From Bradyrhizobiaceae bacterium (GTDB taxonomy: Bacteria; Pseudomonadota; Alphaproteobacteria; Rhizobiales; Xanthobacteraceae): DNA of 63,986 nt. The DNA is taken from contig CANKBJ010000004.1 in NCBI GenBank assembly GCA_947479905.1, positions 1 through 63,986 on the forward strand. The letters are read 5' to 3'. Below the pieces are notes generated by a model, which saw nothing but the letters and a program-made list of their open reading frames with translations, ran no database searches and was not told where the DNA came from. Position 1 is the first letter of the stretch, and each line of letters begins with the position of its first letter. Both the position numbers and the translations under genes were made by a program. Below, one piece after another: positions 18,103-58,683 of the stretch.

Positions 18103-18158
18103 AATGCGTTATATTTCAAAGACATAAGTCGCTAGCCTTGTTGGTCGGCCTGAGTTGA

Positions 18159-18208
18159 CGTTCATCGCGTGAACGAGTATTAGATTTGCGCTGTTCATAG
18201 CATGAACA
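18159..18208. promoter_or_regulatory. Two GTTCA-N5-TGAAC inverted repeats
   Basis: CGTTCA-TCGCG-TGAACG (18159-18175) and TGTTCA-TAGCA-TGAACA (18192-18208) are two copies of the same palindrome, with centres 33 bases apart, about three turns of DNA. A further half-site TGAACGAG lies at 18223-18230. They fill the 113-base gap before the winged-helix regulator gene and end 7 bases before its first ATG, so they are best read as operators of that regulator or another dimeric factor. Confidence 0.65.
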
Positions 18209-18215
18209 ATCGCCG

Positions 18216-18878
18216 ATGAATTTGAACGAGCAAGATATGGCGACCGGTCATCCCACCTTCGAGGAAACTGATTTCGTCGACGTCGAGATTGCGCTTGGCG
18301 TGCTCGACGCTGTCGACCGCAACCCTTCGGTCACGCAACGGTCTGTCGCGCTGGAACTGGGGATCGCCCTCGGTCTGGCTAACGCCTATCTCAAGCGCTG
18401 TGTCCGCAAAGGGCTGATTAAAGTCAGTGAAGTTCCGGCGCGGCGCTACGTCTATTACCTAACCGCCAAGGGATTTGCCGAAAAATCGCGTTTAACGGCA
18501 AGCTATCTGTCTCACTCGTTTTCCTTTTTCCGGCGGGCTCGCAATCAATGTGCCAACGTTTTTGACGACGCGGCGCTGCGGGGCCAGAGCCGATTTGCCC
18601 TGTTGGGTGGCGGAGACCTCGCCGATATCGCTTTGCTCGTCGCCCGCGAAAAGAATGTCGATGTCGCCGGAATTGCCAACGCGAGCAACGCAGCGGATCT
18701 CCAGCGTCAGCTGAAGGCCTTCGGTCAGGTCGATGCCGTCATGATCACGGCGCTGGAGGGGACCCATGACGCGCTCAAGATTTCGCTCGCGGCGCTACCG
18801 GAAAATCGCGTTCATATCCCCGAATTGCTACGTGTGAGATTCAGCCGCCCTTTCGGCGCGAGCGAGACCACCGAATGA
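18216..18878 (+). CDS. Winged-helix transcriptional regulator (EPS-associated MarR-like)
   Basis: A 220-residue regulator. Residues about 20-90 form a winged helix-turn-helix (LDAVDRNPSVTQRSVALELG, then AYLKRCVRKGLIK and a wing RRYVYYLTAKG). The rest (about 95-200) has a Rossmann-like sequence, RFALLGGGDLADIALL and VAGIANASNAADL, which may bind a small ligand. Similar proteins occur at the head of exopolysaccharide clusters. The ATG at 18237 (MATGHPTFEE) may be the true start. It overlaps the NusG-like gene by 4 bases (ATGA), forming a two-gene control unit preceded by a pair of inverted repeats. Confidence 0.75.
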   Translation: MNLNEQDMATGHPTFEETDFVDVEIALGVLDAVDRNPSVTQRSVALELGIALGLANAYLKRCVRKGLIKVSEVPARRYVYYLTAKGFAEKSRLTASYLSHSFSFFRRARNQCANVFDDAALRGQSRFALLGGGDLADIALLVAREKNVDVAGIANASNAADLQRQLKAFGQVDAVMITALEGTHDALKISLAALPENRVHIPELLRVRFSRPFGASETTE

Positions 18879-19381
18879 CCGGCACTCTCTGGTACGTCGT
18901 CCATACTCGTCCGAACAGCGAGACGAAGGCAGACTTGAACCTGCGACGGCAGGGCTTCTCGACCTATTTGCCGCGCTATCAGCGGCAGCGCCGGCACGCC
19001 CGCAAGATCGAAATCGTCGCGCGTCCCTTGTTTCCCCGCTATCTCTTCGTCGCGCTCGACTTGGCGTTCGACCAGTGGCGCTCGATTCAATCGACCTTCG
19101 GAATCAGCCAGATCATCCTCGCAGGCGAGAAGCCGCGGCCGCTTCCGGACGGGGTGGTCGATGAGATTCGGGCGCGTGAGACTGATGCCGGCTACGTCAA
19201 GATTGGGTTGCCGGCTGGTGTAAAGCCCGGAAGCCGAATTCGTCTCCTCGACGGCGTTTTTGCAGATGCCACAGGGGTCCTTGAGCAGGTCGCCGACGAA
19301 CGACGTGTCGCAATCCTGCTTTCGCTCCTCGGGCGCGAAGTGCGAATGTTCGTTCCTGCGGCGAGTGTCGGAGCGATTTGA
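18875..19381 (+). CDS. Specialised NusG/RfaH-like transcription antiterminator
   Basis: A 168-residue NusG paralogue. The NGN domain (about 1-105) opens with LWYVVHTRPNSETKADLNLRRQG and includes FPRYLFVALDL, the segment that contacts the RNA polymerase clamp. A KOW domain follows (GSRIRLLDGVFADATGVLEQV). Unlike housekeeping NusG it sits alone in a glycan locus, coupled to a winged-helix regulator, and immediately ahead of a 41-kb co-oriented gene run. RfaH-family proteins of this sort load at an ops element in the leader of long operons and suppress polarity. A matching motif lies 54 bases after its stop codon. Confidence 0.85.
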   Translation: MTGTLWYVVHTRPNSETKADLNLRRQGFSTYLPRYQRQRRHARKIEIVARPLFPRYLFVALDLAFDQWRSIQSTFGISQIILAGEKPRPLPDGVVDEIRARETDAGYVKIGLPAGVKPGSRIRLLDGVFADATGVLEQVADERRVAILLSLLGREVRMFVPAASVGAI

Positions 19382-19396
19382 TCGCTCGCGCTTTGG

Positions 19397-19455
19397 AGTG
19401 CTGGACAACCGTGTGGCGCGTGAGCCACCCGGACTGCGGTAGCATGCCTTTTCTC
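19397..19455 (+). promoter_or_regulatory. ops/JUMPstart-like element in the operon leader
   Basis: GCGGTAGCATGCCTTTTC lies at 19436-19453. Compared with the E. coli ops element (GGCGGTAGCGTGCTTTTTTC, from memory), it keeps the GCGGTAGC core, the TGC and the T tract, differing at about four positions. Upstream, AGTGCTGG (19397-19404) recalls the 5' part of JUMPstart, and a small hairpin is possible (GTGGC 19413-19417 with GCCAC 19424-19428). The element is on the coding strand, 20 bases before the 19475 ATG and just after the RfaH-like gene. The match is read from the sequence; recruitment of the antiterminator is inferred. Confidence 0.5.
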
Positions 19456-19474
19456 AAGCCTTGATAGTCCAAAT

Positions 19475-20380
19475 ATGCTCACAGAAATGACAGACCAACA
19501 ATTTCTGGCCGCGCTTCCCGCTTATTCAGAGCCTGTCAGTCTGAAATCGGCGCAAGGGCGGCGCATTCGAGCGACGATCCGCCGTGGCCTCGCCCATCTC
19601 GTGTTGCGCGAATTGCTGACGTCACTTCGCCGCGGCTACCGCGGACGCAGCCCCGATGATGTAAAGGACTACTACGAAACCAATTATGTGAATACCGGGG
19701 AACGCGCCGCAGCCCAACATGGGGAACCTGGACGACGCGTTTTCTATCGGTTTTTGGACTCTTGGATTATCGAACTCGAATCGCGCCACACGGAGGCTAT
19801 CGCCAGCCAAATCATGGGCAATATCATCGAAGACATTGCGCCGGCTTCACTTTGTGAAGTCGGATGTGGCTACGGCCGAAATCTCCTCTATTTGGCAAAC
19901 CGGCTCGAGAATGTTCGTTGTTCCGGCGTTGAGCTTGCGCAAAGCGGCGTCGACGTCGCCCATCAGCTGCAACAGTTAGATTTAGTGAATACCGGCTATG
20001 GCGGTGTTTACGGCTTTACCGAGCGGGGAACGGACAACGTTCGCCGCACCAACATCGTCCAAGGCTCATCATATAAACTGCCGTTGGAAGACGCCTCGGT
20101 CGACATGGTGGTTACCTGTGAAGCGCTCGAGCAAATGCAGACTGGGCGCGACCAAGCCCTGCGTGAAATCCGGCGTGTCGCCGGCCGCTACGCCTTATTT
20201 TATGAACCGTTCGCGGACGGCAATGATTGGTTACAGCGTTTGTATCTCTGGTCGCGAAATTACTTTCGGACGCCGGTAAAGTCGTTGCGCGACTATGGCT
20301 TTGAGCCTATTGGCATCTTCACACATGTGCCGGTCAAGCCGACCTTCGCCTATACATTCGTGTTGTGCCGGGTCGTCTAG
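19475..20380 (+). CDS. Class I SAM-dependent methyltransferase
   Basis: A 301-residue protein and the first gene of the main run. The methyltransferase fold begins near residue 120 with SLCEVGCGYGRNLLYLA (motif I), then GVELAQSGVDVAHQL, a post-I acidic residue, and DMVVTCEALEQM with a Glu in the motif IV position. An N-terminal helical extension of about 110 residues includes a YYETNYVNTGERAA segment. The acceptor is unknown, but position in the locus suggests O- or N-methylation of a sugar. The start at 19475 places the ops-like motif in the leader. Confidence 0.75.
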   Translation: MLTEMTDQQFLAALPAYSEPVSLKSAQGRRIRATIRRGLAHLVLRELLTSLRRGYRGRSPDDVKDYYETNYVNTGERAAAQHGEPGRRVFYRFLDSWIIELESRHTEAIASQIMGNIIEDIAPASLCEVGCGYGRNLLYLANRLENVRCSGVELAQSGVDVAHQLQQLDLVNTGYGGVYGFTERGTDNVRRTNIVQGSSYKLPLEDASVDMVVTCEALEQMQTGRDQALREIRRVAGRYALFYEPFADGNDWLQRLYLWSRNYFRTPVKSLRDYGFEPIGIFTHVPVKPTFAYTFVLCRVV

Positions 20381-20446
20381 TTCGCCGAATAGTTATTCGT
20401 TCGCGGGCCATGTCTGCGAAAAAAGGAAAGCACGAAGTCCATCAAT

Positions 20447-21514
20447 ATGACCGATAGCAAGACCAAAACAATGGGCGGCGAATGCCGCACATTCAAGAAT
20501 CCAGCGGCTGACCTCGTCGACAAAGCCGTTCTCGTGACGGGCGGCACGGGGTCGTTCGGAAATGCCTTCGTTCGCCAATTATTGAGCGCGTCGAAGTTGC
20601 GAAAAATCATCGTCTTTTCGCGAGACGAGCAAAAGCAAGAATCCATGTCGTTTGCGTTACGCGATGAATTCCCGGACCAATTCGACCGGCTTCGATTTTT
20701 TATCGGTGATGTGCGCGATACGTCTCGTCTGGAGCTCGCGATGCGAGGCGTCGACATCGTTGTTCATGCTGCCGCGCTCAAAATCGTGCCGACCGCTGAA
20801 TACAATCCGTTCGAATGTATCCTCACCAACGTTCATGGCGCAGAAAACGTCGTCAAAGCGGCGCTCCGCACCGGAGTGTCGCGAGTCGTGGCGCTTTCGA
20901 CCGATAAAGCTGCCAGTCCGATCAACCTCTATGGCGCGTCGAAGCTTGCCGCCGACAAGATCATGGTTGCCGCCAACAACTTGTCGGGCGACGAAGGCGG
21001 ACGATTTTCGGTCGTGCGTTATGGCAACGTTATCGGCTCGCGCGGTTCTGTGGTGCCGCTGTTTCAGAGGCTAATTAGTTCCGGAGTCAAAGCGCTTCCG
21101 ATAACTGATCCGAGGATGACTCGCTTTTGGATTACCATTGAACAAGGGGTGAATTTCGTTCTCTCGTCGATCGCCCTTATGGCGGGCGGTGAAATATTTG
21201 TGCCGAAAATCCCGTCGATGAACATTGCCGACCTAGCGAGGTGCATAGCGCCTGACTTGCCGCAGGAGACCATCGGCATCAGGCCGGGCGAAAAACTGCA
21301 TGAAGTCATGATCACCGAGGACGATGCGCGGATGACCGTCGAGCTCGACGACCGTTTTGTTATTTGTCCGACCAATCCAGGCTGGACAACGACGCATCTC
21401 GACCGGTGCGGCGCCAAGCCGGTTGCCGAAGGATTCCGCTATTCGTCCGACGGCAATAGCGAATGGCTCGAGGACGGTGGAATTCGAAGCCTGATGGGCT
21501 GGAAAGTTGCCTGA
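20447..21514 (+). CDS. pseB: UDP-GlcNAc 4,6-dehydratase (5-inverting), pseudaminic acid step 1
   Basis: A 355-residue member of the PseB/FlaA1 dehydratase family, which turns UDP-GlcNAc into UDP-2-acetamido-2,6-dideoxy-L-arabino-hexos-4-ulose. The NADP motif TGGTGSFG starts near residue 31. Further signatures are SRDEQKQE, VVHAAALKIVPTAEYNPFE, the catalytic STDKAASPINLYGASK (Asp-Lys plus Tyr-x3-Lys) and RYGNVIGSRGSVVP. The N-terminal 20 residues are extra, so a slightly later start is possible. Its partner PseC lies three genes downstream. Confidence 0.9.
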   Translation: MTDSKTKTMGGECRTFKNPAADLVDKAVLVTGGTGSFGNAFVRQLLSASKLRKIIVFSRDEQKQESMSFALRDEFPDQFDRLRFFIGDVRDTSRLELAMRGVDIVVHAAALKIVPTAEYNPFECILTNVHGAENVVKAALRTGVSRVVALSTDKAASPINLYGASKLAADKIMVAANNLSGDEGGRFSVVRYGNVIGSRGSVVPLFQRLISSGVKALPITDPRMTRFWITIEQGVNFVLSSIALMAGGEIFVPKIPSMNIADLARCIAPDLPQETIGIRPGEKLHEVMITEDDARMTVELDDRFVICPTNPGWTTTHLDRCGAKPVAEGFRYSSDGNSEWLEDGGIRSLMGWKVA

Positions 21515-22193
21515 GGATACCAATCGCTTGTCGATTGCTCAGAAAGCCGTTGTCTCCGAGTCGGAGGGGGATGCCTGGCTTGCCCGCAATCTTCCGCGGC
21601 TGGGTGATCTGGCCGCCAAAGGCGGCGATCCCGTCGTTGAGATACTCGACCAAAGCGGCGTTCGCGGCCGGAGCATTCTTGAAATTGGGTGCAGCCACGG
21701 CTGGCGGTTGGAACTGCTGCGCAAGGCTTCGTCCGCCTTCGCCGCCGGCATCGATCCGTCGCTCCGCGCGATTGAGGAAGGCCGCAAACTCTACCCGGAA
21801 CTTGAACTGGTGCGGGGAACGGCCGATGCATTGCCGTTCGAGAGTGCGCGGTTCGATCTGGTGATTTACGGCTTTTGTCTTTACCTCTGCGACCGCGCCG
21901 ATCTTTTCAAGATCGTGGCCGAGGGCGACCGGGTGCTGGCCGAGAACGGCTATCTGGTCATTTACGATTTTTGTGCGGAGCATCCCCACCGCCGCAGCTA
22001 TAGCCATGATGCTCGGCTGACGACCTATAAGATGGACAATTCGGCGTTGTTTCTGGCGAACCCCGCCTACAAATTGGTGGCGCAGCGCATGATCGGTGCC
22101 GACGGCGGCCCCGCGACCTCGGACGATGATCGTGTCGCGATCAGTTTGTTGAAGAAGAACCTCGACGATGCCTACCCGTTGCGTGGCAACTGA
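21507..22193 (+). CDS. Class I SAM-dependent methyltransferase
   Basis: A 228-residue methyltransferase with motif I ILEIGCSHGWRLELL near residue 57, an acidic residue after strand 2 (AGIDPSLRAIEEG), and RFDLVIYGFCLYLCD as motif IV. The start is a TTG at 21507 that overlaps pseB by 8 bases, with GGAAAG directly before it; a TTG at 21528 is an alternative. Similar proteins often sit beside PseB in nonulosonic acid loci, where they may methylate the sugar. The target is not known. Confidence 0.7.
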   Translation: MPEDTNRLSIAQKAVVSESEGDAWLARNLPRLGDLAAKGGDPVVEILDQSGVRGRSILEIGCSHGWRLELLRKASSAFAAGIDPSLRAIEEGRKLYPELELVRGTADALPFESARFDLVIYGFCLYLCDRADLFKIVAEGDRVLAENGYLVIYDFCAEHPHRRSYSHDARLTTYKMDNSALFLANPAYKLVAQRMIGADGGPATSDDDRVAISLLKKNLDDAYPLRGN

Positions 22194-22210
22194 GCGCCGC
22201 GGCGTCGAAT

Positions 22211-23179
22211 ATGTCGAAAGCAATTGGAATATTGGGCCTTGGCTCTATCGGAATGCGGCACGCGTCCAATCTACTTGTGCTCGGAGAGCAGGTTGTTGGG
22301 TTCGATCCCGATCCGAGCAGGTGTGCGATGCTAGCAAAGGCGGGCGGACAACCAACCGACACAGCCGCCGGCGTCATGACAACCACGCGCGCCGTCGTTG
22401 TCGCCTCGCCGAATGATCGGCATCTCGACGATCTTAATGGTGCGATGCAAGGCGGGCTGCATTGTTTCGTTGAGAAGCCCCTCGCGCATCATGCCGGTGG
22501 CGTCGCCGAATTGCTGGCCCTTGCACATCGGAAAAATCTCGTTGTCTTTTGCGGCTTCAATTTGCGCTTTCATCCTTGCGTCATCGCTGCGCGGGCGGCG
22601 CTCGATGCCGGAAAAATCGGCCGCCCGATCCGCGCGCAAATCGAATGCGCATCTTATCTTCCGAATTGGCGGCCGGGCACCGACTACCGCAAGAGCTACG
22701 CGGCGAACCCGGCGACCGGCGGCGTCGTATTCGATGTCATCCATGAAATCGACGTGGCGCTATTCCTGTTCGGAGCGGCGCAGGTGACAGCCGCGAGCGC
22801 CTATTGCAGCGGATACTTGGATATGCCGAGCGATGACGTCGCCGATTTCGTCCTGCGGCATAGTTCCGGAGTTAGCTCTGCCGTTCATCTCGATTATGTT
22901 ACGCGGCCGCCGTTGCGGAGAACCCGGGTTGTCGGGACAGAGGGCAGTTTGGAAATCGACCTGATCGCGCGGACGCTCACGCGGCTTTCGCCGGCCGGTC
23001 AGGTCGCAGAATCGATCGCCTATCCAGGTTCGTTTACCGAGGATTATCGTGAAGAGATGATTGCATTTCTTGCACGCATAGACGGCCGTCCCGGCGCAGG
23101 CGCGGACGGCGAAGATGGCTTGCGGGCACTGAAGGTCGCTCTCGATGTTCGCCATATGTCAGGACTTCCGAACGTATGA
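22211..23179 (+). CDS. Gfo/Idh/MocA-family oxidoreductase
   Basis: A 322-residue NAD(P)-dependent sugar oxidoreductase. It opens with AIGILGLGSIGMRHASNL, has VVVASPNDRHLDDL and CFVEKPLAHHAGG, and the catalytic-type GGVVFDVIHEIDVALFLFG helix with His. It overlaps the next gene by 4 bases. It is directly followed by the SpsF-aminotransferase fusion, an arrangement that suggests oxidation of a hydroxyl to a keto group that the aminotransferase then converts to an amine. Confidence 0.85.
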   Translation: MSKAIGILGLGSIGMRHASNLLVLGEQVVGFDPDPSRCAMLAKAGGQPTDTAAGVMTTTRAVVVASPNDRHLDDLNGAMQGGLHCFVEKPLAHHAGGVAELLALAHRKNLVVFCGFNLRFHPCVIAARAALDAGKIGRPIRAQIECASYLPNWRPGTDYRKSYAANPATGGVVFDVIHEIDVALFLFGAAQVTAASAYCSGYLDMPSDDVADFVLRHSSGVSSAVHLDYVTRPPLRRTRVVGTEGSLEIDLIARTLTRLSPAGQVAESIAYPGSFTEDYREEMIAFLARIDGRPGAGADGEDGLRALKVALDVRHMSGLPNV

Positions 23180-25230
23180 AAACGGTCGCAATTATTCAGG
23201 CGCGGATGTCTTCCGCGCGTCTGCCCGGTAAAGTTCTGGAAGATCTCGCGGGCCTCCCCGTCATCGCTTGGGTTGTGCGGGCCGCCCGCGCAAGCGTTGG
23301 CGTCGATGAGGTGGTCGTCGCGACATCGACCGAGGCCAGCGACGACGCCGTCGCCGCATGGTGCGAGAAAAATGGCGTCGCGGTCCATCGCGGATCGGAG
23401 CGCGATGTGCTGGATCGGTTTAAAGGCGCAATCCTCGTTCACAAGGCGGATGTCATTGTTCGCATGACCGCCGATTGCCCATTTCTCGATCCGGCTGTCG
23501 TCGGCCAGACAATCCGTCTACGTTCGGAAAACGGCGCGGACTACGCGTGCAATACCGACCCGCCGACCTGGCCCGATGGGCTCGATTGCGAGGTGGTAAC
23601 CGCCGACGCATTGCTTTTGGCCGCGGCGGAAGCCGGCCGGCCGAGCGACCGTGAGCATGTAACGCCGTTCGTACGCAATAACCGCATGCGCTTTTCGGCC
23701 GAAACGCTAGTGTCGCCGCTGCCGCGACTTGAGGCCGAGCGGTGGACGCTTGATACACCGGATGATCTGAAATTCCTTCGCGAGGTTGCGACCCATCTGC
23801 CACGGGACCGCGCGCCGTCGCATCTTGAAGTGCTCGCAGTGCTCGACAAAGAGCCTGAGCTGCGCAACATCAACCGCGTCAATAGCCGCAATGCCGGCTT
23901 CGATGCCGCCCTGATCGCGGATCCGGTTGATGTGAAGCGTAGCTTTGCCGGTTCGCAGAAGCTGATGGAGCGCGCCGAGTGCGTTATTCCGCTTGGCTCC
24001 CAGACCTTCTCGAAAAGCCGCGTGCAGTTGCCGCCCGGCGCATCGCCGTTGTTCGTAACCCACGGCGACGGCGGTCGGGTTTACGATGTGGACGGCAATG
24101 AATATGTCGATCTGGTCAACGCGCTTCTGCCGAACATCCTCGGCTACCGCGACGCCGACGTTGACCTCGCCATCCGCAGTCAACTTACGCGTGGCATCAG
24201 CTTCAGCCTGCCGACGCCGCAGGAAACCGAACTGGCGGAACGCCTAATTGATAATATTCCCTGCGCGGAGATGGTTCGGTTTGGCAAGAACGGCACCGAC
24301 GTCACGTCCGCTGCCGTTCGGCTGGCGCGGGCTTCGACCCGGCGCGATCGGCTGATGCTGCTCGGCTATCACGGCTGGCAGGATTGGTACATCGGCGCGA
24401 CGACGCGCAACCTTGGGGTTCCGGCTTCTGTTTCGGCGCTATCCCATCTGGCACCTTGGGGCGACCTGGCGGCGGCAGATGCGCTGTTCCGTAAGTATCC
24501 CGGCGAGATCGCGGCGATCATTCTTGAACCGATGAACGTGTCCGAACCCGCGCCCGGCTATCTCCAGGATCTGATTGACTTGGCGCACCGGCACGGCGCG
24601 CTGGTGATCTTCGATGAGATCATCACCGGTTTTCGTTGGGGCCTCGGCGGCGCGCAAGCGCGTTACGGCGTTGTTCCCGATCTTGCGTGCTTCGGCAAAG
24701 CCATGGGCAACGGCATGCCGATCTCAGCCGTCGTCGGCCGTGCCGATGTGATGCGGCTCATGGAAGACATTTTCTATTCAGGGACGTTTGCAGGCGAAGC
24801 GCTGTCGCTCGCCGCGGCGATCGCGACTATCGACAAGCTTAAGCGCGACAAAGTCGCCGAACATCTCTGGCAAGTCGGCGGCTCTCTCATGGCCGCCGCC
24901 AAGGAAAAGATTAAGGCCAAGGGGCTAGACGATGTCCTGGGGCTGGTTGGCGTGGCACCCTGGGCCATCCTGACCTATCGCGATCATGCGACGGCTTCGA
25001 AAGAAGCCGTGAAAACCCTGTTCCTGCGTGAAATGATCGCCGCCGGCGTTCTCATTAACGCCAGCCACAATGTCTGTTTCGCGCATTCGTCCGCCGATTT
25101 CGCCCGAATTCTGGCCGCCTACGACCATGCTTTGGGCGAAGTGCGGGATGCCCTCGACCGCGGCGACATCGAACGGCGGCTCGGCAACCAGGTGATCCGG
25201 CCGGTATTTTCGGTGCGGGCCGCCTCGTGA
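23176..25230 (+). CDS. Fusion of SpsF-type nucleotidyltransferase and class III aminotransferase
   Basis: A 684-residue two-domain protein. Residues 1-240 are an SpsF/CMP-sugar-synthetase-like domain: IIQARMSSARLPGKVL, VVVATSTEASDD, MTADCPFLDP, and RWTLDTPDDLKFL. Residues about 255-684 are a class III aminotransferase of the glutamate-1-semialdehyde aminomutase type: GNEYVDLVNA, FGKNGTDVTSAAVRLARA, YHGWQDW, VIFDEIITGFR and the PLP lysine K508 in FGKAMGNGMP. The frame is continuous with no stop or shift, so this is a real fusion. It would couple amination and nucleotide activation of one sugar. It starts 4 bases inside the preceding oxidoreductase gene. Confidence 0.85.
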   Translation: MKTVAIIQARMSSARLPGKVLEDLAGLPVIAWVVRAARASVGVDEVVVATSTEASDDAVAAWCEKNGVAVHRGSERDVLDRFKGAILVHKADVIVRMTADCPFLDPAVVGQTIRLRSENGADYACNTDPPTWPDGLDCEVVTADALLLAAAEAGRPSDREHVTPFVRNNRMRFSAETLVSPLPRLEAERWTLDTPDDLKFLREVATHLPRDRAPSHLEVLAVLDKEPELRNINRVNSRNAGFDAALIADPVDVKRSFAGSQKLMERAECVIPLGSQTFSKSRVQLPPGASPLFVTHGDGGRVYDVDGNEYVDLVNALLPNILGYRDADVDLAIRSQLTRGISFSLPTPQETELAERLIDNIPCAEMVRFGKNGTDVTSAAVRLARASTRRDRLMLLGYHGWQDWYIGATTRNLGVPASVSALSHLAPWGDLAAADALFRKYPGEIAAIILEPMNVSEPAPGYLQDLIDLAHRHGALVIFDEIITGFRWGLGGAQARYGVVPDLACFGKAMGNGMPISAVVGRADVMRLMEDIFYSGTFAGEALSLAAAIATIDKLKRDKVAEHLWQVGGSLMAAAKEKIKAKGLDDVLGLVGVAPWAILTYRDHATASKEAVKTLFLREMIAAGVLINASHNVCFAHSSADFARILAAYDHALGEVRDALDRGDIERRLGNQVIRPVFSVRAAS

Positions 25231-25237
25231 TATTGCC

Positions 25238-26437
25238 ATGACGCAAAAGTTTCTTCCTTACGGCCGTCACGCCATCGACGAAGACGACATCCTGGCTGTG
25301 TCAGAAGCATTGCGCGGCGATTTCCTAACCACGGGTCCCCGGGTCGAAGAATTCGAAACTGGTTTCGCCGCCGCGACCGGGACGCGCCACGCCGTTGCTT
25401 GTAACTCCGGGACCGCGGCGCTGCATCTTGCGGTTCTTGCACTCGGTATTGCGCCGGATGAGGCGGCGATCGTACCGAGTTTAACATTTCTGGCAACGGC
25501 CAATGTCGCCCGCATGGCCGGAGCAGACGTGGTCTTCGCCGACGTCGATCCGGATACCGGGCTGATGACCGCCCAGACCTTCGCCGAAGCGCTCGAACGT
25601 GCGAAATCGGCAGGTCTGACTGTGAAGACCGCGCTCCCGGTGCATCTTAACGGCCAGGTCTGCGACATGGCAGACATCGCAGCGGCCGCAGACAAACACG
25701 GGATTGCTCTGATCGAGGATGCCTGCCACGCGCTCGGCGCCGCCGATATCGGCGCGACGCCATACTCACGGATTGCCTGTTTCTCGACGCATCCCGTCAA
25801 GGCGATAGCCACCGGCGAGGGCGGCGTTGCGACGACTGCCGATGATGAACTGGCGCGGCGCATGCGCCTGCTGCGAAATCATGGAATGACCCGGGAAGCC
25901 GGTGTTTTCGTGCACAAGGGCATGGCTTTCGACGGCGATGTTGCCAATCCTTGGTATTACGAAATGCAGGAGATCGGCTGGAACTACCGCCTGCCGGATG
26001 TCTTGTGCGCGCTCGGCATCAGCCAGCTCAAGAAGCTCGATCGTTTCTATCGCCGTCGCGTTGAGATAGCGGCGCTCTACGATTCCCTGCTGGCGCCGCT
26101 GGCGCCGCTGATCCGCCCAGTTTCGCACGGCAACCGGCCGCACGGATGGCACCTCTATCCGGTGCTGATCGATTTTGATCGGCTTGGTAAGTCGCGCGCC
26201 GAGACAATGAGGCAGTTGCGCGACCAAGGGATCGGAACTCAGGTCCACTACATCCCGGTTCATAGGCAGCCTTATTACCAGAAGCTCTACGGCGAACTGT
26301 CATTGCCGGGTGCTGATTCATATTATGCCCGCTGCTTATCGTTGCCGTTTTATCCGGCTTTGGCGGATACCGATCTGACGCGCGTTGCCGACGCACTGGC
26401 CGCGCTCATTTCCGCTTCGGGCAAGGTGAGCGTCTGA
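25238..26437 (+). CDS. pseC: UDP-4-amino-4,6-dideoxy-AltNAc aminotransferase (DegT family)
   Basis: A 399-residue DegT/DnrJ/EryC1 PLP enzyme. The second pseudaminic step aminates C4 of the PseB product. It begins FLPYGRHAIDEDDILAV, has CNSGTAALHLA, LIEDACHALGA and the PLP lysine K188 in FSTHPVKAIATGEGG; the HPVK-x5-GEGG form is typical of PseC. C-terminal YIPVHRQPYY is also diagnostic. Its stop overlaps the next gene by one base. Identification rests on these motifs plus PseB, PseG/H and PseI in the same run. Confidence 0.9.
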   Translation: MTQKFLPYGRHAIDEDDILAVSEALRGDFLTTGPRVEEFETGFAAATGTRHAVACNSGTAALHLAVLALGIAPDEAAIVPSLTFLATANVARMAGADVVFADVDPDTGLMTAQTFAEALERAKSAGLTVKTALPVHLNGQVCDMADIAAAADKHGIALIEDACHALGAADIGATPYSRIACFSTHPVKAIATGEGGVATTADDELARRMRLLRNHGMTREAGVFVHKGMAFDGDVANPWYYEMQEIGWNYRLPDVLCALGISQLKKLDRFYRRRVEIAALYDSLLAPLAPLIRPVSHGNRPHGWHLYPVLIDFDRLGKSRAETMRQLRDQGIGTQVHYIPVHRQPYYQKLYGELSLPGADSYYARCLSLPFYPALADTDLTRVADALAALISASGKVSV

Positions 26438-27897
26438 TGGGCGAGGTCTGCCTGTTTCGTGCCGATGCGTCGCCGGCGATTGGAGCCGGCCACGTCATGC
26501 GCTGCCTGGCCTTTGCGGAAACCCTGCAATGGGCCGGATGGACCTGCCGGTTTGCCACTAACGAGTTGGCGTCGGCAGCTGCGCCGGCGCTGATGTCGGG
26601 CGGACACGATGTGCGCGTGATGACGAATCAAGCCGATGTGGCGACGCTGGCGCGCGACGCGCGTGTGGCCGTGATCGATCACTATGGCCTCGATGCTGCG
26701 CTCGAACGGGCGATTGCGGCGGAAGGCGCACGCGTGGTCGTGTTCGACGATCTTGCCGACCGTCTGCATGCGTCGGATATTTTGCTGGATTCATCACCGC
26801 AACGCGTCGCCGACGATTACCGGGGCAAGGTGCCTGCGGACTGCCGACTTTTGCTGGGTGCGCGCTACGCAATCGTACGGCGGATGTGGCGTCAGAACGC
26901 CGCTGCGGCCCGGCAGCGTCACGCCAAGGGCGAGGCGGTTCGCCGCATCGTCGTGTCGATGGGAGCGACCGACCCGTCCAATGCGACACTGCGTGTCATC
27001 CGCGCGCTTTCGGGTCTGCCAAAGAGCATTGAGGTTGATGCCTTGCTCGGCTCGGCTGCGCCGCATCGCGAAGCGGTGACAGCCGCGCTTGGCGCCGGTA
27101 TGCGGCTGCACGTTGATCCTGAGAATTTGGTCTCGTTGTTCGCGGACGCCGATCTGGCTATCGGAGCTGCCGGATCGACGAGTTTTGAACGCGCCATTCT
27201 CGGGCTTCCGTCGATATTGATCCCGGTGGCTGACAATCAGCGTTTCATCGTTCAGGCATTTGGCGCGGCGAAAGCGGCGGAGGTGCTTTCGGCCGACGCT
27301 CTCGACCGTCCTGCGGAATTTGTCGCTCAAGTTCGCCAGTTCGCGGACGACGGCGACAAGCGCGCCGAGATGTCACAGGCCGCGGCACGAATGATAGACG
27401 GGCGCGGTACGCTTCGGTTGCTGGCGGCCGTGGCAGGCACTTATATCGGCGCGAACGGCGCGACAATTGAATTACGCGCAGCCGAGCCGGAAGACGAGGA
27501 TTGGCTTTTCGAATTGCAGCTTCAACCCGCGACCCGCCGCTATGCTCTCGATCGCAACCTACCGAAGCCGGAGGGGCACAAACGCTGGCTAGCCTCAACC
27601 CTTGCCGATCCGGAACGGCTTCTGGGGATCGTCGTTGTCACAGGCGAGCCGGCAGGAATGATCCGGCTTGACCGTATTTCGTCGAAGCCGGTCACGTTTC
27701 AGGTATCCATCGCCATCGATGAGCGTAAGCAGCGCCTTGGTATCGGCCGCGCTGCTTTGGAACTTGCCCGCGGCATCGCGCCCGCGGCAGAATTTGTCGC
27801 AACGGTACTGCCGGAGAACCGCGCGTCGCGGGCTTTATTTTCGGCTGCTGGCTATCGCGCGGAAGGCGACAATCGTTTCCGAAGGAGGGCGGCGTAA
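26437..27897 (+). CDS. PseG-PseH fusion: nucleotide-sugar hydrolase and N-acetyltransferase
   Basis: A 486-residue fusion of two consecutive pathway enzymes. Residues about 1-335 are PseG, the hydrolase that frees 2,4-diacetamido-2,4,6-trideoxy-L-altrose from UDP: FRADASPAIGAGHVMRCLA, VVFDDLADR, and the GT-B-like AIGAAGSTSFERAILGLP motif. Residues about 340-486 are a GNAT acetyltransferase (PseH): IELRAAEPEDEDWLFE, then SIAIDERKQRLGIGRAALEL and TVLPENRASRALFSAAGY. PseH acetylates C4-NH2 before PseG acts, so the fusion joins steps 3 and 4. In many bacteria these are separate genes. It is linked by one-base overlaps on both sides. Confidence 0.9.
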   Translation: MGEVCLFRADASPAIGAGHVMRCLAFAETLQWAGWTCRFATNELASAAAPALMSGGHDVRVMTNQADVATLARDARVAVIDHYGLDAALERAIAAEGARVVVFDDLADRLHASDILLDSSPQRVADDYRGKVPADCRLLLGARYAIVRRMWRQNAAAARQRHAKGEAVRRIVVSMGATDPSNATLRVIRALSGLPKSIEVDALLGSAAPHREAVTAALGAGMRLHVDPENLVSLFADADLAIGAAGSTSFERAILGLPSILIPVADNQRFIVQAFGAAKAAEVLSADALDRPAEFVAQVRQFADDGDKRAEMSQAAARMIDGRGTLRLLAAVAGTYIGANGATIELRAAEPEDEDWLFELQLQPATRRYALDRNLPKPEGHKRWLASTLADPERLLGIVVVTGEPAGMIRLDRISSKPVTFQVSIAIDERKQRLGIGRAALELARGIAPAAEFVATVLPENRASRALFSAAGYRAEGDNRFRRRAA

Positions 27898-28955
27898 TGC
27901 AAGAATTTGCCATCGCCGGACGGAAAATAGGCCCCGGGCATTCGCCCTATGTGATTGCCGAGCTATCCGGAAATCACAATGGCCAGCTTGAGCGGGCGTT
28001 TCGGCTCATTGAAGTGGCAATGGAAGCCGGCGCCGACGCGGTCAAGCTTCAGACCTATACGGCCGACACGATCACCATCGACTACGACGGTCCGGGCTTC
28101 GCGATCGAAGGCGGACTGTGGAGCGGCCGAAAGCTCTACGATCTTTACCAAAAAGCGCAGACGCCGTGGGAATGGCATGAAGCGTTATTCGAAAAAGCGC
28201 GGCAGATCGGCATCACGGCTTTCAGTACGCCATTCGATTTCACGGCGGTTGATTTTCTAGAGAAGCTCAACGCGCCGGCCTACAAGATCGCGTCATTCGA
28301 GATCATCGATATTCCGCTGATTGAGTACGTCGCTGCGACCGGCAAGCCGATGATCATTTCGACCGGAATGGCCAATTTGTCCGAGATAGAAGAGGCCGTG
28401 GCGGCGGCGCGCGGCGCGGGCTGCCGAGACTTGGCCGTGCTGCATTGCGTCAGTGGGTATCCGACGCCTTGTGGCGACGCCAATCTACGCACGATCCCGG
28501 ACCTTGCCGCGAAACTGGGCGTCACCGTCGGATTGTCGGACCACACCATGGGCGTTGCGGTTTCGATCGCGGCGGTCGCGCTTGGGGCTACGATCCTCGA
28601 AAAGCATGTCACGCTGGCGCGCGCGCACGGTGGTCCCGACTCTGCCTTTTCGCTTGAACCGCACGAACTGGCCCAACTTGTGGCGGCGACCGCGGACGCG
28701 CACGCGGCGCTTGGGTCGGTGAACTATGCCCTCAAGTCGAGCGAGCAGGGCAGCATGGCATTTCGGCGATCGCTTTATGTAGTCGCGCCGATCCGGAAAG
28801 GAGAGCGCTTTACGGAGCGCAACATTCGTTCCATTCGGCCGGGTTATGGACTGCCGCCGAAGCTTCTCCCCGACATTATAGGTCGCAACGCGGCGCGCGA
28901 TATCGATCGCGGCGCCGCGATGACACTCGACATGATCGAGACCGTTGAGCCATGA
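27897..28955 (+). CDS. pseI: Pseudaminic acid synthase (NeuB family)
   Basis: A 352-residue NeuB-family enzyme that condenses phosphoenolpyruvate with the altrose derivative to give pseudaminic acid. The barrel has YVIAELSGNHNG, VKLQTYTADT, FSTPFD, YKIASFE, STGMA, HCVSGYPTP and the metal-binding EKHVTLAR. A C-terminal SAF domain (about 290-350) is present with RRSLYVVAPIRKGE and RPGYGLPPK. The GNHNG/EKHVTLAR set and the position behind PseG favour PseI over a sialic or legionaminic synthase. Start overlaps the fusion gene by one base. Confidence 0.9.
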   Translation: MQEFAIAGRKIGPGHSPYVIAELSGNHNGQLERAFRLIEVAMEAGADAVKLQTYTADTITIDYDGPGFAIEGGLWSGRKLYDLYQKAQTPWEWHEALFEKARQIGITAFSTPFDFTAVDFLEKLNAPAYKIASFEIIDIPLIEYVAATGKPMIISTGMANLSEIEEAVAAARGAGCRDLAVLHCVSGYPTPCGDANLRTIPDLAAKLGVTVGLSDHTMGVAVSIAAVALGATILEKHVTLARAHGGPDSAFSLEPHELAQLVAATADAHAALGSVNYALKSSEQGSMAFRRSLYVVAPIRKGERFTERNIRSIRPGYGLPPKLLPDIIGRNAARDIDRGAAMTLDMIETVEP

Positions 28956-29689
28956 CGTCTCGTACCGTCGCAACCATCGAAGCGCGCATGACGTCAACCC
29001 GCCTCCCGGGAAAGGTGCTGATGTCGGCCGCCGGCCTCCCGATGCTTGAACTTATGATCGAGCGGCTCAGATTTGTGAAGGAGATCGACGCGATTGTGAT
29101 AGCGACCACCGTCAATGCGAGCGACGATCCGGTCGAGGAACTGGCGCACCGTGTCGGCGTCGGCGTCTGGCGCGGCAGCGAAGCGGACGTGCTGAACAGG
29201 GTGCTCGACGCTGCGAAGGCCTATGAGGCCCAAACAATCGTGGAACTAACCGGCGACTGCCCGCTGATAGATCCGGCCATCGTGTCAAAGGTTATTAATG
29301 CCTATCGCGATCAAAATGCGGATTACGTTTCGAATATAATCGAGCGCACCTATCCTGACGGCATGGATACGCAGGTTTTTGCGACGACACTTCTTGAAGA
29401 TGTCGCGCGCCGCACTGACGATGTCGCAGATCGCGAACATGTAAGCCTTTATATCTATCGCCATCCCAAGATCTATTCCCTGGCCAATGTGGTGGCGCCG
29501 GCTGAAGTGGTCCGCCCGGATTTGCGGCTCACGCTCGATACCCGTGAAGACCTCGCGGTTATTCGGACCATCTTCGAGTCGCTGCGGCCGACGCGAAAGG
29601 ATTTCACGCTGGCGCAGATTCTTGCATTCCTCGATGCCCATCCGCAGATCGCCGCGATCAACGCGCAGGTCGAGGCGAAAATTGTCTGA
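28952..29689 (+). CDS. SpsF-type cytidylyltransferase-like protein
   Basis: A 245-residue nucleotidyltransferase with ATIEARMTSTRLPGKVL, VIATTVNASDDP, LTGDCPLIDP and LRLTLDTREDLAVIR, the same signatures as the N-terminal domain of the 23176 fusion. It lies directly after PseI with a 4-base overlap, so it may serve as the CMP-pseudaminic acid synthetase (PseF role), but true PseF proteins carry an ARGGSKRI motif, which this one lacks. It could equally activate a different sugar together with the following oxidoreductase and aminotransferase. Confidence 0.75.
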   Translation: MTSRTVATIEARMTSTRLPGKVLMSAAGLPMLELMIERLRFVKEIDAIVIATTVNASDDPVEELAHRVGVGVWRGSEADVLNRVLDAAKAYEAQTIVELTGDCPLIDPAIVSKVINAYRDQNADYVSNIIERTYPDGMDTQVFATTLLEDVARRTDDVADREHVSLYIYRHPKIYSLANVVAPAEVVRPDLRLTLDTREDLAVIRTIFESLRPTRKDFTLAQILAFLDAHPQIAAINAQVEAKIV

Positions 29690-30662
29690 CCCCTGGCGCG
29701 CGCTCATTGTCGGCTGTGGCAAGATTGCCGGCGGTTATAATCGTGGACCGGACGACGCGATGGTTCTTACTCATGCGCTGGCCTATCGTAATCATCCGGG
29801 CTGTAAACTCGCAGCCTGTGTCGACAGCAACGCCGAAGTGCTGGCGGATTTCGCGGCTCGCTGGGACGTGCCGCGGACTTATTTGAGCCTGGATCAGGCG
29901 CTCGATAGCGAGAGCTTCGATATCGTGAGTGTCTGCTCGCCGACCGGGACGCATCTGGCGACATTGCGCCGCCTGTTGCAAGCCCGGCCTCACGCGGTCT
30001 TTGCCGAGAAGCCTCTCGACGGGGACGCGAAGCAGGCGCGCGAAATCGGGGCGCAATTCGCGGCGCAAGAAATTCCCGTCGCTGTGAATTTTACGCGGCG
30101 CTTCGATGAAGCCATGCATGCCCTGCGTCAATCGATCCGCGAAGGCCGCTATGGCACGCTTCATTCCGTGGTCGGATGGTACGGCCGGGGCGTCGTCAAC
30201 ACTGGCAGTCATCTCATAGATCTCGTGAATTATCTGACCGAACGGGAGCCGACGATCGAACATGTCGGCGCGGCGCAGCTCTGCGGCCTCGATCCGGATT
30301 TTACGGTGACGGCTGAACTCGATCTGGGCGGCGTGCCGTTCCGAATTATCGGCTTACCGGGGGTCGACGTTGGCCGGTTCGAGGTGGAGATCGGCTTCAG
30401 TGACGCCATCGTTTCCTTGGAAGATGCTGGGATGACGCTTCGCTTGCGCTCATACGGAGCGTCTGACGTATTCGCCAATGAGCGCGCTTTAGATCGCGGC
30501 ACATGGCAGCGGACCGGTTATGGCATCGCGATGCTGCGGGCGATCGATGAACTTCTCGCTTGGCGCTCCGGTGCGAGATTGTCTTCGGATATTGAGAGCG
30601 CGGCTTTCTCAATCGAACTTGCTGATGAGATCCGCGCGCGATCTGTGGAGAAGTCCCAATGA
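29682..30662 (+). CDS. Gfo/Idh/MocA-family oxidoreductase
   Basis: A 326-residue oxidoreductase beginning at a TTG at 29682, which overlaps the previous gene by 8 bases and has GAGGCG about 8 bases before it; the frame runs open back to 29487. Motifs: ALIVGCGKIAGGYNRG, IVSVCSPTGTHL, FAEKPLDGDAKQ and NTGSHLIDLVNYL with the catalytic His. It overlaps the aminotransferase gene by 4 bases. The SpsF, Gfo/Idh and DegT genes form a tight three-gene module, fitting a path that oxidises, aminates and activates one sugar. Confidence 0.85.
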   Translation: MSDPWRALIVGCGKIAGGYNRGPDDAMVLTHALAYRNHPGCKLAACVDSNAEVLADFAARWDVPRTYLSLDQALDSESFDIVSVCSPTGTHLATLRRLLQARPHAVFAEKPLDGDAKQAREIGAQFAAQEIPVAVNFTRRFDEAMHALRQSIREGRYGTLHSVVGWYGRGVVNTGSHLIDLVNYLTEREPTIEHVGAAQLCGLDPDFTVTAELDLGGVPFRIIGLPGVDVGRFEVEIGFSDAIVSLEDAGMTLRLRSYGASDVFANERALDRGTWQRTGYGIAMLRAIDELLAWRSGARLSSDIESAAFSIELADEIRARSVEKSQ

Positions 30663-31984
30663 GCCAGCTTGCAATTTTCGGCGGCGCGCCGGTCCGATCG
30701 ACTCCGTTTCCGGCCTATTCGGTGATCGGGGAAGACGAAAAGCGCGCCGTTATGGAGGTCATGGATAGCGGCGTGCTCTCACGCTATCTCGGTTGCTGGG
30801 ACGAAGACTTCTATGGCGGATCGAAGGTCCGTGAATTCGAGGCGGCGTGGGCGGCGCAAAGCCAAGCCAAGCACGCGGTCGCGGTAAATTCCTGCACCTC
30901 AGGTCTCTATGCGGCCGTCGGTGCGCTGAATATCGGACCCGGCGACGAGGTGATTGTCTCGCCCTTTACGATGGTGGCATCCGCCACAGCCGCTTTGATT
31001 TTCAACGCGGTGCCGGTGTTCGCCGATATCGATCCTGAACTTTACACCTTATCGGCTGAGACGATTGCGCAGTGCATTACGCCGCGAACCAAAGCCATCA
31101 TCGTCGTGCATATTTTCGGGCAGGCGGCCGACATGGACCCGATCATGGCGCTGGCGCGGCGTCACGGCATCGCGGTGATAGAGGACTGCGCGCAGGTGCC
31201 GTTCGCGACCTACAAGGGCCGTCCGGTCGGGACGCTAGGCGATATTGGCGTGTTCAGCCTGAACTATCATAAGCATATCCATACTGGCGAAGGCGGCGTT
31301 TGCGTTACGAACAGCGACGAACTCGCCGACCGCTTGCAACTCATTCGGAATCACGCCGAAGCCGTCGTCGAGGATAAGGGCACGACCAATCTGGTCAACA
31401 TGATCGGCTTCAACTTCCGGCTTGGCGAGATCGAGGCGGCGATCGGCCTGAGCCAGTTGCACAAAGGTCCCGCGCTGATCGCGCAACGCAAACAAAACGT
31501 GCAATATCTCGAAACCAAGCTTGCGGGCATTCCGGGGCTCGCGATGCCCAAGGTCGGCCCCGCCGGCGATCACGTCTATTATCAGCATGTTTTCGATTAC
31601 GACGAGGAGAAGACCGGCGTGTCGCGCGATTCTTTTTCCGCCGCCGTTAAGGCGGAGCTTCCGCCAACTCTGCTGCGAGAGCATGAAGGCCCATTATTGG
31701 GCGCCGGCTACGTCAAGCCAATCTATCTGTTGCCGATGTATCAGCGTATGATTGGCTACGGCACGGTGCAATGCCCCTTCCGTTGCCCGCTCTACGACGG
31801 CAAGCCGTCTTACGACGCGGGCATATGCCCGAACGCGGAACGGGCGCACCAATCGCGCGTTATTACGCATGAGATGATCCGGCCGCAGATGACGACGCGC
31901 GATCTCGACGATGTCGCCGCCGCCTTCCACAAGGTCGCCGACAATTTTGGCGAATTATCGGATCGGGCGCACACAATTGCCTGA
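30659..31984 (+). CDS. DegT/DnrJ/EryC1-family sugar aminotransferase
   Basis: A 441-residue PLP enzyme, somewhat longer than PseC. It begins LAIFGGAPVRSTPFPAYSVIG, a feature of the AHBA synthase and scyllo-inosose aminotransferase side of the family. It has VNSCTSGLYAAVGAL, SPFTMVASATAALIFNAVPVF, VIEDCAQVP, and the PLP lysine K205 in YHKHIHTGEGG. A cysteine-containing C-terminal segment (QCPFRCPLYDG) is unusual. Together with the preceding Gfo/Idh oxidoreductase it is expected to aminate a keto-sugar or cyclitol. The substrate is not known. Confidence 0.85.
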   Translation: MSQLAIFGGAPVRSTPFPAYSVIGEDEKRAVMEVMDSGVLSRYLGCWDEDFYGGSKVREFEAAWAAQSQAKHAVAVNSCTSGLYAAVGALNIGPGDEVIVSPFTMVASATAALIFNAVPVFADIDPELYTLSAETIAQCITPRTKAIIVVHIFGQAADMDPIMALARRHGIAVIEDCAQVPFATYKGRPVGTLGDIGVFSLNYHKHIHTGEGGVCVTNSDELADRLQLIRNHAEAVVEDKGTTNLVNMIGFNFRLGEIEAAIGLSQLHKGPALIAQRKQNVQYLETKLAGIPGLAMPKVGPAGDHVYYQHVFDYDEEKTGVSRDSFSAAVKAELPPTLLREHEGPLLGAGYVKPIYLLPMYQRMIGYGTVQCPFRCPLYDGKPSYDAGICPNAERAHQSRVITHEMIRPQMTTRDLDDVAAAFHKVADNFGELSDRAHTIA

Positions 31985-32990
31985 CGAGATTAGACCTCGC
32001 TCCGTGCTAGTTTTCAGCCGCGATCCAGGGCCGACCAATCTGTTGATCGCGTTGGTTGAGCGCCTATCGTCGGCAGCGTCCGAAGATGAATTAGAGGGCA
32101 TCGCGACCTTGCGGCAGAAGATCGATCGGTCTCATGCGACGATTATGGCCCGCGATCCGGGTGTGCGGATGTGGCAACAGGCGGGGTTCTCGCCGACGTC
32201 GTGGCGTGACCGATCCAAAGAGGCCGCGCGAAGGCTTCTGCTCGATTCCGAGGCGGCGTTCGTTCTGACCGGCTCGAGCGACGTTGACGAATTCGGCGAC
32301 CGGGACCTCTGGCAGGCTGCCCGTTCGCTCGGCCTTGAATCGCATGTTGTGATCGATCACCCGGCTAATTTGCGCACCCGCTTTAACGATCGGGAGGGCA
32401 ACCCGCTATGGCCGGACTATCTCTATGTCGCGGACTACGATTTTGCCGAGCGGCTCGTTAAGATCGGCCACGAGCGCAGCCGCGTGCGCGTGATCGGCGA
32501 TTTACATCATGCGCGGTTAAAGCGTCGCGCCGTCGATGTGAAGGACGCCGACATCGCGAATTTGCGTCGCGGTTGGGGCGCCGATGAGAAAACCCATGTG
32601 ATCCTGTTTGCTTCAGAATGTGCGCGCGAAATGCTAATCGCCGGTTGCCCAAGCCAATACGACGAGATTGCAGTTCTTGAGGACTTGCTTGGCACCCTTG
32701 AAAACGGCGAGACACCAGGACCGGTTCGCGCCAATCCAGACGATGTTCTTGTTGTGATCCGGCCGCACCCGCGCGATGCGGCGGGCAAATACGACGAAAT
32801 CGCTTCTGGCTATGCGGGTTGCCTACGCGTTATTGTAAGTGGCGAAGCCGGTGTCGAATTGGCCATTCTCTCGTCTGACGTGGTCGTCGGGATGAACTCG
32901 TCATTTCTTTATGAGGCCTACGAATTGAAACGCCCCGTGGTTTCACTGACGGGACATATTATTGCAGATGGCAAGAGTTGTGCCGGCTAA
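31977..32990 (+). CDS. Putative GT-B-like glycan protein, unknown
   Basis: About 337 residues from the TTG at 31977, which overlaps the previous stop; a GTG at 32004 is an alternative and the frame is open to 31911. It starts with a Rossmann-like VLVFSRDPGPTN. The second half has VLVVIRPHPRDAAGKY and VVVGMNSSFLYEAYELKRPVVSL, which resemble the C-terminal lobe of capsule-type or CDP-glycerol glycosyltransferases. The N-terminal half has no recognised catalytic residues. I treat it as a likely glycosyltransferase or glycan-associated protein, with moderate doubt. Confidence 0.5.
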   Translation: MPDEIRPRSVLVFSRDPGPTNLLIALVERLSSAASEDELEGIATLRQKIDRSHATIMARDPGVRMWQQAGFSPTSWRDRSKEAARRLLLDSEAAFVLTGSSDVDEFGDRDLWQAARSLGLESHVVIDHPANLRTRFNDREGNPLWPDYLYVADYDFAERLVKIGHERSRVRVIGDLHHARLKRRAVDVKDADIANLRRGWGADEKTHVILFASECAREMLIAGCPSQYDEIAVLEDLLGTLENGETPGPVRANPDDVLVVIRPHPRDAAGKYDEIASGYAGCLRVIVSGEAGVELAILSSDVVVGMNSSFLYEAYELKRPVVSLTGHIIADGKSCAG

Positions 32991-33009
32991 TGCTTGATTC
33001 GAGACAAAA

Positions 33010-35660: not shown

Positions 35661-35676
35661 CCGGGGGTAGAAAACC

Positions 35677-37059: not shown

Positions 37060-37070
37060 TCAAAATAGTC

Positions 37071-38954: not shown

Positions 38955-38964
38955 CGTCGGCGGC

Positions 38965-39759: not shown

Positions 39760-39767
39760 ATAAGATC

Positions 39768-40862: not shown

Positions 40863-40895
40863 ATCAAATCTGCGAGCCTGAAGAGGAAAACGCCC

Positions 40896-42464: not shown

Positions 42465-42485
42465 TAAGCTGAAGGGATCTGGTCG

Positions 42486-44593: not shown

Positions 44594-44596
44594 CCC

Positions 44597-45775: not shown

Positions 45776-45784
45776 AAAACCATT

Positions 45785-49297: not shown

Positions 49298-49299
49298 CC

Positions 49300-51395: not shown

Positions 51396-51420
51396 TGCCC
51401 GCTGCCGTCCCGGGCCATCC

Positions 51421-52083: not shown

Positions 52084-52160
52084 ACATTAAGCCATGCAAT
52101 GATCTGCGATAGTATGGTAATGTTTGGCTCACATCAGGCTTCTCAGCGACAAGTCATTTT

Positions 52161-53000: not shown

Positions 53001-53002
53001 AA

Positions 53003-55763: not shown

Positions 55764-55783
55764 AATAGGGTGATAATTCAGCC

Positions 55784-56839: not shown

Positions 56840-56874
56840 TGCGGTTCAATTCGTTTTTTCGCCAGGAGTAAGAA

Positions 56875-57675: not shown

Positions 57676-57689
57676 CGCCGCGAGGCCCT

Positions 57690-58664: not shown

Positions 58665-58683
58665 TGCGGAGCTGACGCAGCCG

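Follow-up and report, generated by a model that had tools for sequence, protein, structure and literature searches.

How does a specialised NusG paralogue, encoded directly in front of a long glycan-biosynthesis operon, reach the polymerases that it presumably escorts? For paralogues residing in their own operons, the means of recruitment is given as unknown in the available part of a 2020 study in mBio (PMC7593976). The locus described here, located in a stretch of 63,986 nucleotides from a Bradyrhizobiaceae bacterium (hereafter the window, a contig of a 3.79-Mb assembly of 86.85% completeness), places a regulator, an RfaH-like paralogue, a short leader and some 41 kb of glycan genes one behind the other.

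We propose that this leader carries an ops-type loading site and a hairpin, at which the resident NusG paralogue would be captured in order to antiterminate the 41-kb operon, and we assign this reading, which is built on sequence comparison, a probability of about 0.82. The conservation of the site, its co-occurrence with the paralogue, the covariation in the hairpin, the operator-like palindromes upstream and a layout shared with JUMPstart together lead to the view of a composite loading signal. A sequence-only reading of this DNA had noticed an ops-like element behind the RfaH-like gene and interpreted it as an antitermination switch; the observation is confirmed, and the interpretation is supported by the comparisons below.

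The locus and its layout

The features on which the argument draws are the following.

18161..18173, no strand assigned: palindrome TTCATCGCGTGAA, candidate operator 1 of the winged-helix regulator (TTCA-N5-TGAA type)
18194..18206, no strand assigned: palindrome TTCATAGCATGAA, candidate operator 2 (TTCA-N5-TGAA type)
18216..18878, plus strand: winged-helix regulator, 220 aa, MarR_EPS-like (TIGR04176 59 bits, cut-off 88)
18875..19381, plus strand: specialised, RfaH-like NusG paralogue, 168 aa (TIGR01955 126.4 bits, cut-off 144.5), with a predicted beta-barrel C-domain
19409..19432, plus strand: leader hairpin (CCG.TGGC arm, loop, GCCAC.CGG arm), just 5' of the ops-like block and with covariation among relatives
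19436..19446, plus strand: ops-like block GCGGTAGCATG, equal to positions 2-12 of E. coli ops, with the predicted pause base T at 19445
19475..60624, plus strand: presumed target, 36 collinear glycan-biosynthesis ORFs (picked by the analyst, some overlapping; 12 of the 36 scanned)

The genes of the regulator and of the paralogue overlap by 4 nt on the plus strand, and no gap inside the 36-ORF run exceeds 77 nt. The 93-nt gap behind the paralogue (19382-19474) and the position of GCGGTAGCATGCCTTTTC within it (19436-19453) had been placed correctly by the sequence-only reading. Among the 12 scanned ORFs, a methyltransferase, PseB, GFO/IDH/MocA, a cytidylyltransferase with an aminotransferase, DegT, two NeuB proteins, an MBOAT protein, a glycosyltransferase and an asparagine synthase-like protein were recognised, while two of the 12 were without a Pfam match at E<=1e-10. 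When the whole assembly was searched with the PF02357 profile, the paralogue was the sole match and a housekeeping NusG was not visible, probably because the assembly is incomplete.

Conservation of the ops-like block behind the paralogue

Within the window, the resemblance to ops is unremarkable when judged by its 8-mer, which occurs in five copies against 2.45 expected; 9 of 100 shuffles contain at least as many. A single 8-mer in a single window is weak evidence, and the telling test is conservation. In 88 loci, comprising the window and fetched loci (a few of the genes are distant, and one or more are housekeeping nusG), GCGGTAGC lies 40-118 nt past the paralogue stop in 51 cases, compared with 19 of 8800 random windows of the same size from the same loci. 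Extending the range to 400 nt past the stop raises the count of exact blocks to 55; the remaining 33 loci, which count against the proposed reading, hold no exact GCGGTAGC within this distance, and in three of them (L061, L063, L084) degenerate copies were seen by eye. The ops resemblance, weak as a count in the window, is thus kept in relatives far more often than chance would give.

The co-occurrence of site and factor was followed through 296 genomes of the same family, 79 of which encode a specialised NusG paralogue (E<=1e-20, counted by eye; the next match stands at 5.4e-17). Exact CACCCGNANNGCGGTAGCNTG is found at 43 places in 41 of the 296 genomes, and all 41 belong to the 79; the 217 genomes without the paralogue hold none, and reversed CACCCGNANNGCGGTAGCNTG, the control, occurs in none of the 296. 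Directly behind the paralogue, within about 300 nt, lie 38 of the 43 sites. The other five are found about 2.3 kb from the paralogue on the opposite strand (G044 and G074), 2.9 kb downstream of it (G134), 33 kb away (G111) and, as a second site of its genome, 362 kb away (G080).

The window's own genome contains one exact copy of the longer pattern, the leader's, and thus no exact second target in an assembly that is 86.85% complete; up to three mismatches, 13 matches (the leader copy included) compare with 35 for the reversed control. With a shorter pattern and one mismatch allowed, matches appear in 166 of the 296 genomes, a search that carries no weight because the reversed control is equally common. 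The near-match CACCGGAACTGCGGTAGC is present in at least 11 genomes of genus g23 (among the matches listed: G022, G103, G151, G178, G195, G219, G227, G247, G261, G268, G288), none of them among the 79 with the specialised NusG.

With respect to single bases, the window block shares with ops GCGGTAGC at positions 2-9 and TG at 11-12. In E. coli, G4, G5, A7 and G8 are required for recruitment and TG 11-12 for the pause, according to the available part of PMC5995543, and all of these are present in the window block. At position 1, where ops has G, the window has T, as do 47 of 55 family leaders, the other 8 having G; at position 10, A, G or T prevails. The leader sets behind this base-by-base table were chosen on GCGGTAGC or the longer pattern, and the invariance of the eight GCGGTAGC bases therefore exists by construction. 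One subgroup (L018, L020, L022, L027, L045) reads GCGGTAGCAATG, with one extra base before TG, which would shift the pause base.

Breadth across named genomes and distant sites

An exact scan of named genomes with TCACCCGNASTGCGGTAGCNTG returned at least 119 stretches (L130-L248), some of which come from the same genomes as family loci. Among the matches listed, the titles are alphaproteobacterial nearly throughout and span many groups, including Kiloniella, Ferrovibrio, Roseospira, Terasakiella, Methylosinus, Methylocystis, Bradyrhizobium, SAR116 and others; six titles read 'Proteobacteria' only, and two stand apart, namely Phormidesmis, a cyanobacterium, for a short contig whose paralogue is degraded (L204), and Gammaproteobacteria for a MAG (L150). 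The check proposed at the outset, namely conservation of the motif behind orthologous paralogues in related Hyphomicrobiales, thus turned out positive well past that order. In a sample of the phylum, GCGGTAGCNTG lies at most 400 nt behind the gene in 15 of 68 fetched RfaH-like loci. A close-relative search of viral contigs returned no relatives.

Again among the matches listed, 91 of 119 stretches have a paralogue ORF whose end precedes GCGGTAGC by 45-166 nt, four have the paralogue elsewhere in the stretch (about 270 nt away in L239), and 24 hold none. Some of these lack the gene because the stretch begins there, as in L171, which represents the same contig as L028, where the paralogue is present. 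Of 18 genomes tested that have a non-adjacent site (drawn from the loci before L210), 17 encode a paralogue elsewhere, the miss being L150. Loading had been envisaged at the very next leader; some of the elements, however, sit at a great distance from the paralogue. At such distant sites, ten proteins picked by eye were scanned: all three upstream genes encode Bac_transf initiating transferases, the downstream ones include a sugar epimerase, a glycosyltransferase, DegT and Polysacc_synt_2, and two of the ten gave no match. Since distant sites lie beside glycan genes, some factors probably also act in trans.

Two further arrangements were noted. L140 has the motif behind a winged-helix gene but lacks the NusG gene, and a complete copy (L193) is on the same contig; L158, a contig titled Rhodopila, carries two motif copies 183 nt apart.

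The leader hairpin

The 'small hairpin' mentioned by the sequence-only reading is real (19409-19432). In leaders aligned on GCGGTAGC, a stem lies directly 5' of the block, typically of the form CGGGTGAY-loop-RTCACCCG. The set examined consists of 121 unique leaders, drawn from 80 of the 119 named-genome loci (at least 119 in the scan) and from the family set after removal of 15 duplicates. Alignment with MAFFT left the 43-nt leaders (97 of the 121) gapless and the 5' arms misregistered, so covariation was counted with the register fixed on six core pairs, whereby 16 of the 121 leaders were dropped; in the other 105, at least five of the six core pairs are formed.

Covariation was assessed against 5000 shuffles, which ignore the relatedness of the leaders. 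Under this limit, pair -12 is formed in 79 of 91 leaders (shuffled mean 45.2) and pair -4 in 86 of 105 (72.3), values reached by none of the shuffles, and pair -2 in 58 of 105 (44.3), reached by 12; pair -11 covaries weakly (92 of 100 versus 88.8, reached by 67). Pairs -3 and -1 show no covariation in the 121-leader set, and pairs 0 and +1 are uninformative because they lie inside the invariant block.

In minimum-free-energy folds, the core arm pairs upstream in 112 of 121 leaders, a figure that is weak alone because shuffled upstream sequence also pairs (549 of 1210). The leader energies lie below those of mononucleotide shuffles, with a median MFE z of -2.48. From the last paired base to the predicted pause base, the distance is 10-14 nt in 116 of 121 leaders, a measure taken on a folded stretch that cannot show distances below 10. 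Among the 15 phylum loci with GCGGTAGCNTG, seven have an upstream hairpin stronger than 190 or more of 200 shuffles, and eight do not. In f29, a family of another class, the stems AATTCAG/CTGAATT and ACAACAG/CTGTTGT replace each other.

A hairpin in front of a long operon could also belong to an intrinsic attenuator or terminator, or to another known leader RNA, the more so as in the window hairpin and ops block are followed by CCTTTTCTC. The T run is, however, not conserved, and the ops block separates it from the stem; furthermore, Rfam is silent over the gathering score both in the window (18000-20500) and in 10 relatives, with two sub-threshold matches, neither in a leader. The terminator reading was rejected on these grounds, and this family of explanations as a whole appears extremely unlikely. 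The comparison with relatives also qualifies the original description, in which the T tract and AGTGCTGG just upstream of the block were counted as resemblances: both are present in the window, but neither is conserved.

The block itself might alternatively mark the start of a leader peptide, given that ops positions 10-12 read ATG, GTG or TTG in 107 of the 121 leaders and that position 10 avoids C, which stands there in 3 of 121 and makes up 27% of the bases downstream. The frame thus opened has a median of 18 codons, compared with 25 and 27 in the other frames (n=117), and lacks a third-position GC signal. A frame no longer than the others and without a coding signal led us to reject the peptide, whose likelihood we regard as practically negligible.

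The NusG paralogue

The best NCBIfam match of the paralogue is RfaH, TIGR01955, under the curated cut-off; it also falls below the cut-offs of UpxY (69.6 versus 100) and LoaP (42 versus 125). Several positions separate 58 aligned paralogues from 13 housekeeping NusG proteins. Of the residues with which RfaH contacts ops (K10, H20, R23, Q24, T72, R73), R23 is matched by R in 49 of 58 paralogues, where all 13 housekeeping proteins have E or D, and H20 by H or N in 54, where all 13 have S. F56, which serves tight RNAP binding, is F in every one of the 58 and L in every one of the 13. Q24 and T72 occur in both groups alike and do not discriminate. K10 and R73 are mostly missing, with K in 4 and R in 1 of 58, which speaks against the preferred reading. 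At the positions of the Rho loop, which is I-F-G in 13 of 13 housekeeping proteins, the paralogues have L in 42, L in 46 and G in 57 of 58.

For the window protein and a Rhodospirillales relative, AlphaFold2, supplied with alignments of 58 and 45 sequences, predicts a beta-barrel C-domain with a mean pLDDT of 93 (pTM 0.73 and 0.69). The NGN domain is close to that of RfaH in ops complexes (8pen_P: TM 0.86 by target length, rmsd 1.5, 95 columns). None of the 58 paralogues has E at the E48 position, whereas 54 have V or I for I93 and 37 retain F130. The models suggest that the paralogue is probably not a fold switcher and carries a NusG-like beta KOW rather than an alpha hairpin, while the retained residues of the I93/F130 type leave some domain contact possible. 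The protein was rightly called RfaH-like, but it ranks under the curated RfaH cut-off and no fold switch is predicted for it.

The missing contacts bear on a further explanation, in which loading would proceed mainly via the RNA hairpin, the ops-like block would serve as a pause only and its DNA bases would remain unread. Loading through an RNA hairpin has been proposed for LoaP, and both the conservation and covariation of the hairpin and the scarcity of R73 and K10 fit this idea. Against it, stem letters, stem length and loop vary widely while GCGGTAGC recurs, and R23 and H/N20 set the paralogues apart from housekeeping NusG. Moreover, the central bases of the E. coli element are dispensable for the pause and required for recruitment, as stated in the available part of PMC5995543. 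We consider this explanation unlikely and retain the reading in which the paralogue itself recognises the ops-like bases.

The winged-helix regulator and the palindromes upstream

The original proposal of a circuit, in which a winged-helix regulator controls an antiterminator that then loads at the next leader, recurs beyond the window: 119 of 168 loci, with some genomes counted twice, have a MarR_EPS-like gene in the same orientation. Around the regulator start (280 nt), TTCA-N5-TGAA is present in 107 of the 117 regions that had enough sequence there, in comparison with 1 of 2340 shuffled ones; a looser palindrome with a centre of 3-7 nt is found in 108 of 117 regions and in 46 of 595 random windows of the same loci. 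The centre measures 5 nt in 181 of 182 matches. At least two palindromes occur in 72 of the 117 regions, most commonly at a spacing of 27 bp (36 spacings); the two of the window (18161 and 18194) have a spacing of 33 bp. These paired palindromes would be the operators of the MarR_EPS-like regulator, as their position and recurrence suggest. The C-terminal half of the regulator (18546-18878) is without a Pfam match and, judged by eye, has a Rossmann-like look; a sugar nucleotide might be what it senses.

Could the inverted repeat of the leader likewise be a DNA operator of this regulator and stand outside any antitermination signal? In favour of this, the repeat is palindromic and close to the gene of the regulator, and its arms (TGA..TCA) are similar to a portion of TTCA-N5-TGAA. 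The best-pairing loop varies from 3 to 19 nt across leaders, however, unlike a fixed dimer site, and the palindromes with the 5-nt centre, upstream of the regulator gene, are the better candidate. The operator reading of the hairpin was rejected on these two grounds and seems very unlikely.

A proposed course of events

On the preferred reading of a loading site with a hairpin, transcription of the locus would proceed in five steps. The MarR_EPS-like regulator may control the promoter via the paired palindromes, and the winged-helix and NusG paralogue genes would then be co-transcribed and co-translated, as suggested by their overlap and common strand. Once the leader is transcribed, the hairpin would fold near the RNA exit channel and RNA polymerase would pause at T19445, in line with the distance between the two and with the E. 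coli consensus pause. There, the NGN domain of the paralogue could read the GGTAG loop of the non-template strand and load, a step to which the recurring bases and the partly retained contacts point. By analogy with RfaH, the loaded polymerase would be shielded against NusG and Rho while it transcribes the 41-kb run of glycan genes.

Evolution and significance

The available part of the mBio 2020 paper (PMC7593976) assigns 18% of rfaH genes to Alphaproteobacteria and places ops contacts and autoinhibition late, with the residues arising together, while also allowing a stepwise gain of contacts, K10 early and R73 late. In a rough tree rooted on housekeeping NusG, the ops loci branch below and beside the RfaH group of other classes; node supports near that group are about 0.7-0.8, and part of the leaves were picked for ops. 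We offer tentatively, at somewhat less than even odds, that ops recognition is ancestral to the RfaH-like branch of the phylum and predates fold-switching autoinhibition. Alphaproteobacteria would then keep the older form, an always-open beta-KOW factor made at its own operon and captured by hairpin plus ops, with some factors already acting in trans.

Among the matches listed from open-access titles and abstracts, no ops or JUMPstart element in Alphaproteobacteria was found, and an earlier report may exist; the present loci combine factors predicted to be beta-folded with an ops-like site at their own operon. An ops-like signal behind RfaH-like genes suggests that long sugar-polymer operons carry their own transcription switch. 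A defined and widespread candidate loading site makes the recruitment of resident factors a directly testable question, and it suggests that recognition may predate autoinhibition. In addition, hairpin, GCGGTAGCNTG and MarR_EPS-type palindromes provide a usable marker for long antiterminated glycan operons in Alphaproteobacteria and for distant targets of their factors.

Comparison with known systems

The closest parallel is the JUMPstart/ops element (RF01707) with RfaH in enteric bacteria, in which the leader of a long glycan operon likewise has a hairpin directly 5' of GCGGTAGCNTG. The block described here is identical to E. coli ops at bases 2-9, 11 and 12, and the E. coli hairpin ends 11 nt before the pause base (RNAfold), within the range of 10-14 nt given above. 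The E. coli K-12 rfb leader, which served as a control and scores 60 bits with RF01707, has a 5-bp hairpin followed by GGGCGGTAGCGTG; this hairpin is no stronger than shuffles, 58 of 200 of which reach it. The stem differs, being of the CGGGTGA..TCACCCG type here and missed by RF01707, and the rfb comparison therefore indicates that the layout is common and the stem is not. The ops-paused complex seen by cryo-EM is described as distinct from hairpin-stabilised pauses in the available part of PMC11001881. A further difference from JUMPstart/RfaH is that the site here lies directly behind the factor's own gene and that the factor is predicted to have a beta-barrel C-domain.

The paralogue resembles RfaH (TIGR01955) in its best NCBIfam match, its close NGN domain, F56, R23 and H/N20, and differs in its score under the cut-off, in the near absence of R73 (1/58) and absence of E48 (0/58), in its predicted beta KOW and in being encoded at its target. 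Monomorphic RfaH homologues, which according to the available part of a 2026 preprint (PMC13015549) are active without ops in E. coli, likewise have a predicted beta C-domain and a gene beside a long LPS or glycan operon, and some ops-binding residues are missing in beta-folded homologues of this kind. Those tested in that preprint act without ops, which counts against the reading preferred here, whereas the gene of the window comes with an ops-like site. UpxY and LoaP are also specialised NusG paralogues of long operons, with the window protein under both cut-offs; the gene of UpxY sits inside the operon that UpxY activates, as described in the available part of PMC7593976.
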